The notes beneath the pieces are model-generated. The model was not told the DNA's origin. It ran no database searches and saw nothing but the letters and a program-made list of their open reading frames with translations. Positions 13,561 to 53,233 of a DNA stretch of 64,000 nucleotides are shown in pieces (within the stretch, counting starts at the first letter, position 1; the number at the start of each line of letters is the position of its first letter). The stretch is taken from positions 1 to 64,000 of the forward strand of contig CALMVZ010000008.1 of NCBI GenBank assembly GCA_937873155.1. Reading direction: 5' to 3'. The position numbers and the translations under genes were made by a program. The DNA comes from an uncultured Bacteroidota bacterium (GTDB taxonomy: Bacteria > Bacteroidota > Bacteroidia > B-17B0 > Aurantibacillaceae).

Positions 13561-14325
13561 ATGAACTTCTTCACCGGATTTTTCAAAGGATTTGGTAATT
13601 GCTTCAAAGCATTCGAATTAATTTTCAATAAAGGCCTTTGGCCTTTTTTACTTTATCCTCTGGCCATCTGGTTAATTACATGGGTGCTGACCTTATTTGG
13701 GATCACATTACTTGCAACGTATCTCACAGGTTTAATTAAAGACCTTTTTCACATTGAGGACAGTTCAGGTTTTTTCGGAGCTATCATCGCCATCTTGATC
13801 AAGATCTCTTTGTTCTTAATATCAGGAACGTTCTCGCGTTATATTTTATTGATCGTGCTTTCTCCTTTGTTTGCTTTGTTATCTGAGAAAGCGGAGGAGA
13901 ATTTAACAGGTGCTAATTTCCCTTTTTCGTTCAGGCAATTAAGTAAAGATATTTTAAGGGGAATATTGATCACACTCCGGAATCTCGGTATAGAATTCGG
14001 AATCATAATTATCTGTACGATCCTTTCTTTTTTCTTCGCTCCCGTTGCAATTATAACGATTCCATTTCTTTTATTCGTTTCCTGGTACTTCACCGGTTTT
14101 ACAATGTTGGATTATAGTGCAGAGCGCCACAAATTAAAAGCAGGCGAGAGTACAGATCTTATCCGGCTAAATAAAGGTTACGCTTGTGGTATTGGCTGCG
14201 TGTATTGGTTATTTATGATCCTTCCTTTTTTTATTGGTGATATCATTGGCGTCATGTTCGGGCCGGCTCTCGCTGTTGTTGGGGCAACCATTTCTTTCTT
14301 GGAGATTAAAAACATTAAAGCTTAA
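13561..14325 (+). CDS. EI24/CysZ-like integral membrane protein
   Basis: 254 residues with about six hydrophobic helices. It begins FFKGFGNCFKAFELIFNKGLW and has LPFFIGDIIGVMFGPALAVVGA near the end, as in the EI24 (CysZ) family. Escherichia coli CysZ carries sulfate; the substrate of the Bacteroidota members is not established and no sulfate assimilation genes are adjacent. Its last 11 bases overlap the convergent SpoIIE phosphatase gene. Confidence 0.8.
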   Translation: MNFFTGFFKGFGNCFKAFELIFNKGLWPFLLYPLAIWLITWVLTLFGITLLATYLTGLIKDLFHIEDSSGFFGAIIAILIKISLFLISGTFSRYILLIVLSPLFALLSEKAEENLTGANFPFSFRQLSKDILRGILITLRNLGIEFGIIIICTILSFFFAPVAIITIPFLLFVSWYFTGFTMLDYSAERHKLKAGESTDLIRLNKGYACGIGCVYWLFMILPFFIGDIIGVMFGPALAVVGATISFLEIKNIKA

Positions 14326-16648
14326 TCCCTATCAGCAACACATCATCCACCTGGTCTAAGTTCCCCTTCCAGTCAGTGAAAGTCGTTTCTAAAACCATTC
14401 TTTGTGCGTTTAGATTCAAACCTGAGTTTTGTTTCAGTGTTTCGCACAGACGACGATATTTGAATTTTTTACCATCAGTTCCTCCGAATTGATCTACATA
14501 ACCATCGGTACCTAAATACAGAATATCGCCTTTTTTGTAATTTACAGAATGTAATGCGAATGAATTCATCCGCTCGCCTTGTCCAACCGGCATTTTATCA
14601 TAAGGTAATTCTGATAATTCTCCGTTACTGATAATGATCGGACTTGTATTTGCGGCAGAGTAGGTGATCTTATCTCCGTCGAAACAAACTAATACGCCAT
14701 CGAAACCATCTTTCTGTTCCTCGCGGGAGATACTTTCTATTAAACGCTTTCTTACGTAATTTAAAACTTCGTGCGGTTCAAGAATTCTTTTTTCGTTGAT
14801 AGCCTCATTCAAAAAAGAGATATTCAGCAAACTCATAAATGCTCCCGGGACCCCATGTCCTGTGCTATCACACACAGCTAAATAAAATAGTTCGGAGTTT
14901 TTAGTTCGTAGTTCGGAGATGGCAGATTCTTTCGCTTTTTCACTCCGAACTCCGAACTCTGAACTACGAACTGAAGTTGCCCAATAAAAATCACCGCTCA
15001 CAATATCTTTTGGTTTGAATAAAATGAAATTATCTTTTAAATGTTTATTCAGGAAATCAGTATGCGCTAATAATGTATATTGAATACGTTTAGCATAATT
15101 GATGGAGTCGAGGATCTCTTTTTGTTTTTCTTCAATGATGTGTTTTTGCTGCGTGATCTCTTTATTAGCTTGCTGTTTATTTTTGAATGCCCTGAAAGAA
15201 ATAAATGCGATCACTAACATCAGTAAAAATCCAAATACACCGCCATAAGTGAATAAACGCTGCTTTGCTATCTCTGCATCATGTTTACTTTGTTCTACTA
15301 AACGGATATTAGCTTGCGAAACACTGTCAGCCGCCGCTTTTTTATCGTACTCGGATTTAAATTGTTGACGAAGGATAGCCTTTTTATTTTCAACGCGCGA
15401 AAGACTATCACGCATTTTTACATGAAGCTCAAACATTTCAAGAGCATCATTGGTCCGGTTGTTACTCCTATAGATCTTGTACAAAGTATATGCAGGATGT
15501 TTAATGAGGTAAGGATAACCTAATTCATTTCCTAATTGTAAGGCTTTTTTTGCATTTTCTTCAGCCTTCGCTAAATTTTTACTGGCTAAATAAATGTCAG
15601 CTACTAATTCGTAAGCTTCAGATAATGAACTTTTGCTTTGAATAGAACTTAAAAGGTCGACCGCCCGGTTCGCATTGAACAAAGCGCTGTCGTGAGATCC
15701 CTTCAAAGAGTAAGCTGAAGAAATAAATATATGGGCTGCAGCCATTCCGCCTTTATCATCAATATTCTCTCTTAACTTTTTAGAATCGTAATAATAAACA
15801 AGGGCTTTATCAGGATCACCTTTCTTAAAATAGATCTGCCCGATATTAGTCAATGAAAGAGCGCAGGATTGTTTTTCGCCTACGATCTCAAATAAGATCT
15901 TGGCTTTATTAAAATTTTGTAAAGCTTTCTCATAATCGCCTTCGCTTTCGTAAATATGTCCAAGGTTATTTAACGTTGCCGCCTGATGACGTTTCTCTCC
16001 CCTTGTTTCAAATATTTTCAGCGCTTTTGAAAAGCAATTTACAGCTGCGGCAAGATCTCCCTGGTTCCTGTAAATGGAACCTAAATTCAGATAAGTGATC
16101 CCGACGCCTGTCTTATCATTGTTCTTTTCTTTTACGTTCAGGGATTTGATATGATATTCTATCGACTTATTAGCATCACCTTGCTTCTTATAAATATCTG
16201 CAAGATTGTTGAGGGAAGCAGATATGCCTGTAAGATCGTTTAATTTCGTTTGTACTTTCAAAGCCTCTTCGTAGTATTTAAGCGCTCCGCTCAGATCTCC
16301 TTTCAGGTTGGCCATTTCAAAACCAATATTACTAAGAGCGTAAGACTTATACATTAAGAATACATTTTCATTTCCGCCTTTTTCAGCGAGTTTAAGTCCA
16401 AGAACATTGTAACGTGTCCAAAGATGTTCATCCCCTAACGAATTCGCTAAATTCATAACGCATCTCACTCTTATTGAGTCATGATTTGCCCTGTGATACA
16501 TTGGTAAAATTGAGTCGAGAATATACTTATCCTGGATGGAAAATTCTTTTGGATCAAGACTATCAAGCAAATACCATTCCTTCCCTTTTTTCTGAGCAGA
16601 AATGAAGGTGCTTAAAAGAACGAGGAATATAAAAATGCTCTTTTTCAA
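14315..16648 (-). CDS. TPR-containing SpoIIE-family serine phosphatase
   Basis: About 777 residues from the TTG at 16648, which gives the signal-like MKKSIFIFLVLLSTFISA; the frame reaches another TTG at 16678. Layout: periplasmic TPRs (about 60-400), a coiled coil, one membrane helix (GVFGFLLMLVIAFISF), a second coiled coil (QQANKEITQQKHIIEEKQ), then a cytoplasmic PP2C/SpoIIE domain (KPKDIVSGDFYWA, VCDSTGHGVPGAFMS, LYLGTDGYVDQFGG). It should dephosphorylate a STAS protein, possibly the nearby one, in response to an external signal. Between FYWA and FYLAVCD, 28 codons (14889-14972) are formed by a heptamer-palindrome element that the family does not normally have. Confidence 0.93.
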   Translation of the reverse strand: MKKSIFIFLVLLSTFISAQKKGKEWYLLDSLDPKEFSIQDKYILDSILPMYHRANHDSIRVRCVMNLANSLGDEHLWTRYNVLGLKLAEKGGNENVFLMYKSYALSNIGFEMANLKGDLSGALKYYEEALKVQTKLNDLTGISASLNNLADIYKKQGDANKSIEYHIKSLNVKEKNNDKTGVGITYLNLGSIYRNQGDLAAAVNCFSKALKIFETRGEKRHQAATLNNLGHIYESEGDYEKALQNFNKAKILFEIVGEKQSCALSLTNIGQIYFKKGDPDKALVYYYDSKKLRENIDDKGGMAAAHIFISSAYSLKGSHDSALFNANRAVDLLSSIQSKSSLSEAYELVADIYLASKNLAKAEENAKKALQLGNELGYPYLIKHPAYTLYKIYRSNNRTNDALEMFELHVKMRDSLSRVENKKAILRQQFKSEYDKKAAADSVSQANIRLVEQSKHDAEIAKQRLFTYGGVFGFLLMLVIAFISFRAFKNKQQANKEITQQKHIIEEKQKEILDSINYAKRIQYTLLAHTDFLNKHLKDNFILFKPKDIVSGDFYWATSVRSSEFGVRSEKAKESAISELRTKNSELFYLAVCDSTGHGVPGAFMSLLNISFLNEAINEKRILEPHEVLNYVRKRLIESISREEQKDGFDGVLVCFDGDKITYSAANTSPIIISNGELSELPYDKMPVGQGERMNSFALHSVNYKKGDILYLGTDGYVDQFGGTDGKKFKYRRLCETLKQNSGLNLNAQRMVLETTFTDWKGNLDQVDDVLLIGIKL
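14889..14972. repeat. Heptamer palindrome, copy A (in frame in the SpoIIE phosphatase gene)
   Basis: The left arm (14889-14918) is AG followed by TTCGGAG, TTTTTAG, TTCGTAG, TTCGGAG. The right arm (14943-14972) is its inverted counterpart: on the other strand AG then TTCGTAG, TTCAGAG, TTCGGAG, TTCGGAG. The arms match at 25 of 30 positions around a 24-base centre. Total 84 bases, exactly 28 codons. It is translated as SVRSSEFGVRSE ... SELRTKNSEL. Confidence 0.9.
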
Positions 16649-16743
16649 TCGGAGAGTAAATATAAGAAAAAGGGACAAAGGAGACTTAAGGGGACAAAAG
16701 AGATTTAAGGGATAATTGTAACTTTAAACAATGTTTGAAAAAC

Positions 16744-18271: not shown

Positions 18272-19348
18272 TTATAGGCTATATCTTGCCTCAGGAACCG
18301 CAGATAATTCGCAAAAGTCTTGTTTCAGGAATTTGTAGTAACCTGTAATGGCGATCATGGCGGCGTTATCTGTACAGAACTCGAAAGAAGGAATGAAAAC
18401 ATCCCATTTTTGTTTAATTCCGGTCTCTTTCAGTTGTTTTCTTAATTCGCTGTTAGCAGAAACTCCTCCTGCAATAGCAATGTGTTTTATGTTATGGATT
18501 TTAGAGGCTTCAATAACATTCTGTAAAAGAATATTTATTAAATGATGCTGATACGAAGCGCAAATGTCATTCAGATTCTTTTCAATGAATTTCGGATCTT
18601 CCTTCGTTCCGTTCTGAATAAAATAAAGAAATGCAGTCTTTATACCACTGAAACTATAATCAAGTCCCGGCACTTTTGACTTAGGGAATTGGAATTTTTT
18701 AGGATCACCCGATTGCGCATGTTTATCAATTAAAGGTCCGCCCGGATAAGGCAAGCCCAAAATTTTAGCAGCTTTATCAAAGGCTTCCCCCACAGCGTCA
18801 TCTTGTGTTTGTCCGATCAATTCAAAACTCAAATGATCGTTTACTTTTACGATTTGGGTGTGTCCGCCGCTAACAGTTAAACACAGGAATGGAAAATTGG
18901 GAGTTCGGATTTCGGAGTTCGTTGACCGTGTGCCTGATTTTTCCTCAGCCAACTCCGAACTCCGAACTCCGAACTGAATAAAATGCGCGAGGATGTGCGC
19001 ATGCATATGGTTCACTTCTATAAGCGGAATACTTAATGCAAGAGCTAAAGATTTGGCAAAACTGGTTCCTACCAGTAAGCTTCCCATTAAACCTGGCCCA
19101 CGTGTAAAAGCTATAGCTGAAATTTGTGATAAATTAACACCCGCTTTTTCCAATGCAGCATGTGCGGTTGGAACAATGTTTTTCTGATGGTCTCTGCTTG
19201 CTAATTCAGGAATTACCCCTCCGTATTGCTCATGAATGGTTTGATTCGCTGTAATATTTGCAAGCAGAACCTCATTCTCAAGAATAGCACATGAAGTATC
19301 GTCGCAGCTCGATTCTATTGCGAGGATGTAAACTTTTTCACTCTTCAT
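18272..19348 (-). CDS. tsaD: tRNA N6-threonylcarbamoyladenosine transferase TsaD
   Basis: 358 residues. An ASKHA-fold protein starting ILAIESSCDDTSCA, with metal ligands in NHMHAHILAH (about 112-121), SGGHTQI and the C-terminal CTDNAAMIA. TsaD transfers threonylcarbamoyl to A37 of ANN-decoding tRNAs and is nearly always essential. Between HILAHFI and FPFLCLTVSGGH, about 26 extra residues (about 125-150) are encoded by a heptamer palindrome; most homologs have a much shorter loop there. It is transcribed divergently from tamB. Confidence 0.96.
   Translation of the reverse strand: MKSEKVYILAIESSCDDTSCAILENEVLLANITANQTIHEQYGGVIPELASRDHQKNIVPTAHAALEKAGVNLSQISAIAFTRGPGLMGSLLVGTSFAKSLALALSIPLIEVNHMHAHILAHFIQFGVRSSELAEEKSGTRSTNSEIRTPNFPFLCLTVSGGHTQIVKVNDHLSFELIGQTQDDAVGEAFDKAAKILGLPYPGGPLIDKHAQSGDPKKFQFPKSKVPGLDYSFSGIKTAFLYFIQNGTKEDPKFIEKNLNDICASYQHHLINILLQNVIEASKIHNIKHIAIAGGVSANSELRKQLKETGIKQKWDVFIPSFEFCTDNAAMIAITGYYKFLKQDFCELSAVPEARYSL
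18897..18975. repeat. Heptamer palindrome, copy B (in frame in tsaD)
   Basis: The left arm is TTGGGAG, TTCGGAT, TTCGGAG, TTCG (18897-18921). The right arm (18949-18975), on the other strand, reads AG then three TTCGGAG units and TTGG. The 27-base centre is unrelated to that of copy A. It is translated as FGVRSSELAEEK ... NSEIRTPN, the same reading register as copy A. Confidence 0.88.
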
Positions 19349-44126: not shown

Positions 44127-45203
44127 TTACGGTCTCATAACTTTGAAAGCTACTGAATTTACAGCAGTTTTACTTACACCGTTCACGAAAAAGTGTTTCA
44201 GCATGGCTTGGGCTTCCGGTAATTCGAATACTTCTTTTAGATTTCTTAATTTACCAATGGGAATTTCATTCTTTAAACATTGATCGTAAAGATCATTGAA
44301 ATTCATTTTTTCAACTTCAATATTTATTAATTCAAATAATTCTTCACGGTTCTTCACCCGGTTTTGGTTAGAACTGAATTTTTCATCAATGAGTAATTCT
44401 TTCAGGTCCAATAATTCACACAACGCTTTAAATTGTTTATCGCTGCCGATAGCAAATGTTACGGTGTGATAATCTTTGGTAGAGAATAATTCCCCATAAG
44501 GAGCAATATTGGGATGTAAAGAACCGATCGCTTCAGGAAGATGTCCGCCAATTAACCAATTCGTCGCTTGATTTACTAATGAAGCAACAGCACTATCAAA
44601 TAATGAGACAGAAACATGACAACCTTTTTTAGATCTTTCCCGTTCCAACAAAGCAATCAGTATCGCTTCTTTTAATTGGTGTCCAGCTAAAAGATCGATT
44701 AAAGCTACCGGCATTTTCACTGGTTTTGAATCCGGTTCACCGTTGATCAACATAAAACCTGCTTCAGCTTGTAAGATCAGATCGTAAGCGGTACGGGTGC
44801 TTTCATTTCCGAAACCATTTATAGAAGCGTAGATGAGTTGGGAGTTGAGAGTTCGGAGTTCGGAGTACGAGACTTTGAGTTTTAAATCATCACCTTTTTT
44901 GAAATTAGTAATGAGAATATCTGCTTCTTTTATTAGCGTATAGAATTTCTGAAGATCGTTTTCCTGAGTGATATCTAAAAACAAAATTTCTTTTCCTGTG
45001 TTCACACTCCAGTAATAAGCACTTTCTTTATCTGAAGCATTTTCTTTCTCGCATTTCCAGCTGCGAGTAACATCTCCGCCGGTTTTTGGATTTTCAATTT
45101 TAATGACCTTTGCACCTAATTCAGAAAAAAATACTCCAACTGATGGTCCGGCTAAAACACCTGCCAATTCAATTACTTTTAAGTCGGAGAAAAATTGTTT
45201 CAT
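44127..45203 (-). CDS. CaiB/BaiF family CoA transferase
   Basis: 358 residues, slightly shorter than usual. It begins LKVIELAGVLAGPSVGVFFSEL, followed by GAKVIKIENP, and has YASINGFG and a catalytic Asp in AYDLILQAEAGFM. Members move CoA between carboxylic acids. Residues about 112-122 (YSELRTLNSQL), just before IYASINGFG, are encoded by a heptamer array (44836-44865) where relatives have unrelated residues of the same length. Substrate unknown; no CoA-linked genes adjoin. Confidence 0.92.
   Translation of the reverse strand: MKQFFSDLKVIELAGVLAGPSVGVFFSELGAKVIKIENPKTGGDVTRSWKCEKENASDKESAYYWSVNTGKEILFLDITQENDLQKFYTLIKEADILITNFKKGDDLKLKVSYSELRTLNSQLIYASINGFGNESTRTAYDLILQAEAGFMLINGEPDSKPVKMPVALIDLLAGHQLKEAILIALLERERSKKGCHVSVSLFDSAVASLVNQATNWLIGGHLPEAIGSLHPNIAPYGELFSTKDYHTVTFAIGSDKQFKALCELLDLKELLIDEKFSSNQNRVKNREELFELINIEVEKMNFNDLYDQCLKNEIPIGKLRNLKEVFELPEAQAMLKHFFVNGVSKTAVNSVAFKVMRP
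44836..44865. repeat. Heptamer array, copy C (single arm inside the CoA-transferase gene)
   Basis: AG followed by TTGGGAG, TTGAGAG, TTCGGAG, TTCGGAG: one complete four-heptamer arm with no inverted partner nearby. On the coding strand it reads SELRTLNSQL, in the same register as the second arms of copies A and B (SELRT-x-NS, SEIRTPN). Confidence 0.8.
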
Positions 45204-53139: not shown

Positions 53140-53233
53140 AGTTCGTAGTTTTTAGTTCGTAGTTCGTAGATATTTTGGCTCGTTGTTGCTGTAAATTTAA
53201 ATTCTACGAACTACCAACTACGAACTCCCAACT
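53140..53233. repeat. Heptamer palindrome, copy D (intergenic)
   Basis: Left arm (53140-53169): AG, TTCGTAG, TTTTTAG, TTCGTAG, TTCGTAG. Right arm (53204-53233), on the other strand: AG, TTGGGAG, TTCGTAG, TTGGTAG, TTCGTAG. The centre is 34 bases of AT-rich DNA unrelated to the other copies. It occupies almost the entire spacer between the rhodanese stop and the DedA start. The total of 94 bases is not a multiple of three, and most heptamers carry TAG, unlike the coding copies. Confidence 0.92.

Follow-up and report, generated by a model that had tools for sequence, protein, structure and literature searches.

A heptamer-armed palindrome in frame in a Bacteroidota phosphatase gene and its probable relation to S23-bearing elements

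To our knowledge, S23 proteins and the intervening sequences (IVSs) of 23S rRNA have been known for decades without a function; short IVSs that carry no ORF occur in bacteria other than Coxiella burnetii. The C. burnetii IVS, as the available part of its description has it, is a selfish element of 428 nt situated in helix 45; it contains an S23 ORF, has a terminal stem of 28 bp, is cut by RNase III, and had earlier been suspected of mobility (PMC4990558). Its terminal inverted repeats, about 28-30 bp long, surround the S23 gene, as do the arms of the gene-bearing forms reported below; heptamer or octamer arms and a lineage-specific repeat word are not described in that part of the source.

Other small repeats lie in frame within genes. 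An earlier, sequence-only reading of the locus studied here pointed to the in-frame palindromic insertions of Rickettsia; these are indeed known, but so are others elsewhere, to judge from the available parts of two reports (PMC3733652, PMC2759123). Rickettsia palindromic elements (RPEs) and in-frame REPs are likewise in-frame palindromes tolerated by the protein; REPs have a RAYT partner, and neither four-heptamer arms nor an S23 partner is described in the available part of that account (PMC3733652). RPE copies share their whole sequence, whereas the copies described below share only an arm frame and differ in their centres. The enterobacterial RU sequences, which are MITE-like, are likewise small, mobile, and either intergenic or fused in frame with genes, but their units are longer (103-168 bp), and the part of their description available mentions no heptamer arms (PMC2759123). 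Heptamer arrays do occur as the TAACTGA repeats of Beggiatoaceae, Cyanobacteria and some Bacteroidetes, often near starts and in some cases inside ORFs, and neighbouring species can lack them; these are direct repeats of one word, with no fixed-length inverted pairs and no link to S23, and no mechanism was evident to their author (PMC4679880).

In-frame heptamer palindromes in the window

We analysed a 64,000-nt stretch of DNA from an uncultured Bacteroidota bacterium (the window; assembly GCA_937873155.1, contig CALMVZ010000008.1, positions 1 to 64,000). Positions 14889-14972 hold an element, E1, made of two 30-nt arms that face inward around a 24-nt centre. The left arm (14889-14918, plus strand) reads AG followed by four heptamers, TTCGGAG TTTTTAG TTCGTAG TTCGGAG; the inverted right arm (14943-14972, minus strand) reads AG TTCGTAG TTCAGAG TTCGGAG TTCGGAG; and the sequence of the centre (14919-14942) is private to this copy. 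Re-reading the arms confirmed the pairing of 25 of 30 positions and the 24-base centre first noted from the sequence, and the window contains 8 arms with at most two framework mismatches, compared with 0.03 expected from Markov resamples. As mRNA, E1 has a folding energy of -34.6 kcal/mol (z -5.8).

E1 lies in frame in a gene for a 787-aa protein with TPR repeats and a SpoIIE-type phosphatase (14315-16678, minus strand), in a loop bounded by GDFYW and FYLAVCD. The sequence-only reading had put it in frame inside the SpoIIE catalytic domain; the frame stands, but the insert immediately precedes the Pfam SpoIIE match (residues 599-786) and lies in the loop between the first two phosphatase strands. 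We found that the segment is absent from the same-genus orthologs in genomes G002, which reads FYWATSANNKFYLAVCD, and G007, which reads FYWATLANDKFYLAVCD, and the same residues did not turn up in orthologs from distant genera. The span from GDFYW to TGHG is 48 residues with E1 and 24 in these two orthologs, a net gain of 24 codons and not the exact 28 supposed earlier. In an AlphaFold2 model built with ten sequences, the insert is a loop joining two strands, with pLDDT below 50 at fragment residues 61-77, the E1 loop. E1 is apparently translated, read through as a predicted disordered loop that adds a net 24 residues to the phosphatase. We also considered whether the centre of such elements could be left over from the native loop or from an S23 gene, and rejected this, as no resemblance was visible by eye.

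The same loop holds other repeats in related sequences: a palindrome from another heptamer family, of GTTTCTG type, in G004, and a third kind of repeat, with CAGTTAG-like words, in a MAG contig (L115). A search for related loci returned only distant MAGs and one at 81%.

Besides the two arms of E1 the window holds five further arms, where three had been counted before. Two of these are in tsaD (18272-19348, minus strand, 358 aa): a left arm with three framework mismatches (18895-18924, plus strand) and a right arm (18946-18975, minus strand), both in frame. A single arm (44836-44865, plus strand) is in frame in a CoA-transferase family III gene (44130-45203, minus strand), and the remaining two form an intergenic pair (53140-53169, plus strand; 53204-53233, minus strand).

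The tsaD pair is a second in-frame element (18895-18975) in a tRNA-modification gene, immediately past the motif HMHAHILAHF. Its loop, HFI..FPFLC, holds differing repeats among related genomes, nine of which have a repeat of some kind there. AGTTNNN elements fill it in the genome of the window (G000) and in G004, G006 and G007; G005 and G013 have other heptamer words, and the repeats of G001, G002, G017 and G021 are unrelated. The centre of the tsaD element looks common to G000 and G004, so that to judge from the sequence this copy was probably inherited. The phosphatase loop and the tsaD loop are tolerant sites that have been hit repeatedly.

Copies across the genome and between sister genomes

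The sequence-only reading had proposed a copied or mobile element instead of a private repeat, and a search for heptamer arms bears this out. In the G000 genome the heptamer pattern gave 111 matches, against 8 in a reversed control. We retained 63 arms (69 raw matches minus six judged to be chance) in 48 stretches totalling 557 kb, where reversed sequence gives 2; the stretches were chosen around matches, and the counts describe those stretches and not a genome average or an unbiased sample. The 63 arms comprise 25 that stand alone and 19 inverted pairs, whose arms are 6-70 nt apart, and so represent at least 44 elements. Within the arms the frame AGTT is almost invariant and the three middle bases are variable, with unit 2 varying most; the scan itself imposes the four-unit frame, and conservation in the columns directly outside it is not comparable.

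The copies lie at the edges of genes or, in frame, within loops of proteins. The outer end of the arm was within 12 nt of a same-strand stop in 20 of 59 cases and within 12 nt of an opposite-strand start in 14 of 59, compared with about 1% of random positions for each; altogether 34/59 arms adjoin a stop or start in this way, and 13/59 are inside genes. Three pairs lie well inside genes, and their lengths (84, 81 and 75 nt) are each a multiple of three.

The arms of a pair were less alike at variable positions (identity 0.49) than random pairs (0.55; lower tail about 0.7%), and we therefore rejected the idea that one arm is copied from the other. Faster mutation of the NNN positions was likewise unsupported, orthologous arms giving 9/120 for variable and 9/180 for frame positions. 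Between gene-less copies the centres show no relation, nor are they related to the ends of S23 genes; these copies are thus not simple deletions of one master.

We compared two sister genomes, G006 and G007, which are about 95% identical (94-97% at most compared sites and flanks). A 128-bp pair element in G007 is missing from G006, where two genes nearly touch, and further copies are present in just one of the two genomes. Families are also swapped: one site has AGTTCGT words in one genome and TTTATAG/TTGATAG words in the other, and a second has a TTCGGAG arm versus a GTTTCTTG pair. One arm differs in length by two units.

Two other repeats were seen in these genomes. Pure, long tandem AGTTAGG arrays of about 11-16 units (L218, 12833-12946; L208, 9254-9332) are at the same place in G006 and G007 and are unlike the four-unit arms. 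Many clustered copies of a unit of about 90 bp that includes CGCGTAATCTGCGGGAAACAAAT were also seen (L221; G007:C3:554354-557240), next to a heptamer arm in G006.

S23 genes and their arms

At one G007 locus (L194) we found a complete PF05635 gene between two AGTTNNN arms about 450 nt apart; in G006 the same flanking genes have only some 10 nt between them. PF05635 is S23, the 23S rRNA-intervening sequence protein, a four-helix bundle, and the G007 protein matches PDB 2gsc (XCC0516) at 2.6e-14. It also matches bAvd, below the curated cut-off; bAvd is an accessory protein of diversity-generating retroelements. S23 genes with AGTTNNN-type arms occupy the shared site in G059, which belongs to another genus (67% identity), and in G001 (53%; placed by its upstream flank). 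This same-site occurrence indicates that the S23 gene is old here, and the empty site of G006 may be a loss.

The hypothesis drawn from this one locus was tested on other PF05635 genes. Of 31 genomes screened, 27 had one, and these Bacteroidia genomes provided a test set of 110 loci. The best repeat period of the S23 flanks was 7 nt in 77/110 and 8 nt in 21/110. Scores for inverted repetition (upstream versus reverse-complemented downstream sequence) averaged 21.1 at S23 loci and 11.5 at 543 other genes, mostly from element-rich stretches, that served as controls (Mann-Whitney p 1e-48); 91/110 S23 loci exceeded the control 95th percentile and 68/110 the 99th.

The arms also co-vary with the protein. 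Across genera, arms were more similar the higher the S23 identity (r 0.214, permutation sd 0.017), and remained so once pairs with related flanks had been removed (r 0.177, sd 0.018); the permutation spread is a guide and not an exact probability, S23 loci being phylogenetically non-independent. The comparison used opposite sides of the loci, and shared flanking genes alone therefore cannot yield the correlation. Among cross-genus pairs the share with similar arms rose from 0.06-0.07 below 40% S23 identity to 0.59 at 60-70% and 0.92 above 70%. Individual lineages keep recognisable words: GTTTCNG-like words in seven genomes for the SVMDNIAEGFERDG lineage, GCAGTNG-like words in most members of the KHFVSKL lineage, octamers in most members of the ANVREAQNAESK lineage, and AGTTNNN in the ECVVC/ECIVC lineage; AATTNGNN is an example of an octamer word. 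The length of the repeat unit, too, seems to follow the S23 protein. The literature searched, which did not extend to most subscription journals, yielded no account of heptamer arms beside S23 genes or of the link from lineage to word. Octamer-armed S23 genes were seen at L289, L281, L282, L355 and L373, mostly in one protein lineage.

The sequence-only reading had remarked that this heptamer design in a Bacteroidota chromosome looks different from the Rickettsia insertions. The design is not confined to Bacteroidota, as ten S23 loci that we examined in plasmid records (PLSDB) show. Most of the cyanobacterial loci have flanking heptamer arms, with the word AGTCAGR common to three Nostocales loci, and an S23 gene of Gemmatirosa (Gemmatimonadota) has octamer arms. 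On plasmid AZO_p2 of Azospirillum lipoferum 4B (L378, 13698-15424) the S23 gene is inside a 23S rRNA (RF02541, 1102 bits), with GGACGGA TGACAGA GGACGGA GGACAGA on one side and the inverted counterpart opposite, four heptamers in each arm; this locus is a classical intervening sequence. A search of phage records with one S23 query gave no match.

Three details of these plasmid loci may be recorded. The PLSDB gene table lists no gene at the Azospirillum locus. In a CRISPR locus of Pseudanabaena galeata (pPg_01, L370), cas6 and cas4 are separated by an S23 gene that has long heptamer arrays on either side, and in Nostoc edaphicum (pNe_5, L372) genes for two ribonucleotide reductase subunits flank another S23 gene, which also has heptamer arrays.

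Origin and significance of the element

In our view E1 probably belongs to a dispersed kind of IVS-like selfish element with S23 and heptamer arms, as a copy without the gene, inserted in a permissive loop. Its 30-nt arms, with 25 pairs, are of the order of the roughly 28-bp terminal stem by which an IVS is recognised. It differs in that its 24-nt centre has no S23 ORF, such as is present at the G007 locus and at most of the 110 PF05635 loci, in that it sits in a protein gene and not, as the Azospirillum copy does, in 23S rRNA, and in that it is apparently translated and not cut out. Because it has no ORF and is not in rRNA, E1 is IVS-like and not an IVS. Terminal inverted repeats also recall MITEs, but no target-site duplication was visible at the few filled and empty sites examined between G006 and G007. 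The gene between the arms of the gene-bearing form is S23, not a known transposase.

Such an element would end in two inverted arms of four heptamers each, with a fixed AGTT frame and variable NNN, and its gene-bearing form would hold a PF05635 gene between arms of the same family. That repeat words tend to be particular to an S23 lineage suggests that the arms are recognised, as a hairpin of DNA or RNA, by S23 or by a complex of which it is part, and S23 might then promote insertion in trans. The insertions that survive would be those at the edges of genes and those that keep the frame in permissive loops on the protein surface. Copies with the gene may be gained and lost, leaving those without it in place, or an S23 of another lineage may act in trans; given its homology to bAvd, S23 may have a reverse transcriptase as partner.

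Several observations stand against this reading. We found no S23 gene of the ECVVC/ECIVC lineage in G000, which has many AGTTNNN arms without a resident matching gene; that lineage is present in only 3/87 genomes of the order, at one shared site in G007, G001 and G059, so that no movement was seen. We know of no nuclease or transposase motif in S23 proteins, and the single arms (25 of the 44 elements) need explanation. The unrelated centres of gene-less copies are a further main difficulty, and the lack of a visible target-site duplication, the lower-than-random likeness of arms within pairs, and variable positions that do not clearly outpace the frame in orthologous arms also count against the reading.

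A purely local origin, by heptanucleotide slippage and foldback or template switching at hairpins, would need no mobile element, S23 genes merely being at repeat-prone sites. In many bacteria the commonest of the longer microsatellites are heptanucleotide tracts (cited in PMC4679880), arrays in G019 vary in length, and the two-unit difference between G006 and G007 is of the same kind. We nonetheless think this origin unlikely, given the position-specific consensus of four-unit arms in some 60 G000 copies, the clean presence or absence of inserts of 128 bp and about 500 bp, and the way in which the arm word follows S23 lineage across genera, between unrelated sites. Spread by a RAYT (Y1_Tnp, TnpA_REP), as for the GTAG/CGTC REPs and BIMEs, seems to us distinctly improbable. 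G000 does have four Y1_Tnp genes, and REPs too occur singly or as inverted pairs, border on genes, can provide a TAG stop and are found in frame within ORFs, according to the available part of their description (PMC3733652). However, no heptamer arm was found within about 1.5 kb of the four genes, whereas arms do flank most S23 genes, and we rejected spread by RAYT on this ground. Y1_Tnp counts also do not track arms (G025 has seven genes and few arms), and a single E1 arm contains no inverted repeat of at least 10 nt, unlike a REP hairpin, whose repeat unit is itself palindromic and headed by GTAG or CGTC. Least credible of all is that the copies serve a function, as terminators, as hairpins for mRNA stability or as sites where proteins bind, and were both spread and kept by selection, with in-frame copies incidental: intergenic copies do adjoin stops and starts and fold well, and a regulatory role was proposed for TAACTGA heptamers that lie upstream of starts (PMC4679880), but loops of TsaD, the SpoIIE protein and a CoA-transferase contain copies in frame, sister genomes differ by presence, absence and family swaps, and the observed location is what insertion and purifying selection would leave.

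The interpretation first made from the sequence is partly supported. Beyond the reading of E1 as a gene-less, IVS-like element there is a wider proposal on which we stand evenly divided: that a large and unrecognised class of mobile elements has S23 proteins as its sequence-specific partners and ends built of 7- or 8-nt words, one word per lineage, and that the IVSs of 23S rRNA, the scattered heptamers of Bacteroidota and Cyanobacteria, and in-frame peptides such as SSEFGVRSSEF are its products. The correspondence between protein and repeat word makes binding by S23 directly testable. If the proposal is true, it would explain the heptamer repeats seen in many genomes, rRNA intervening sequences and protein-gene insertions would be one kind of element, and selfish hairpins would remodel the loops of essential proteins, such as TsaD, in frame.
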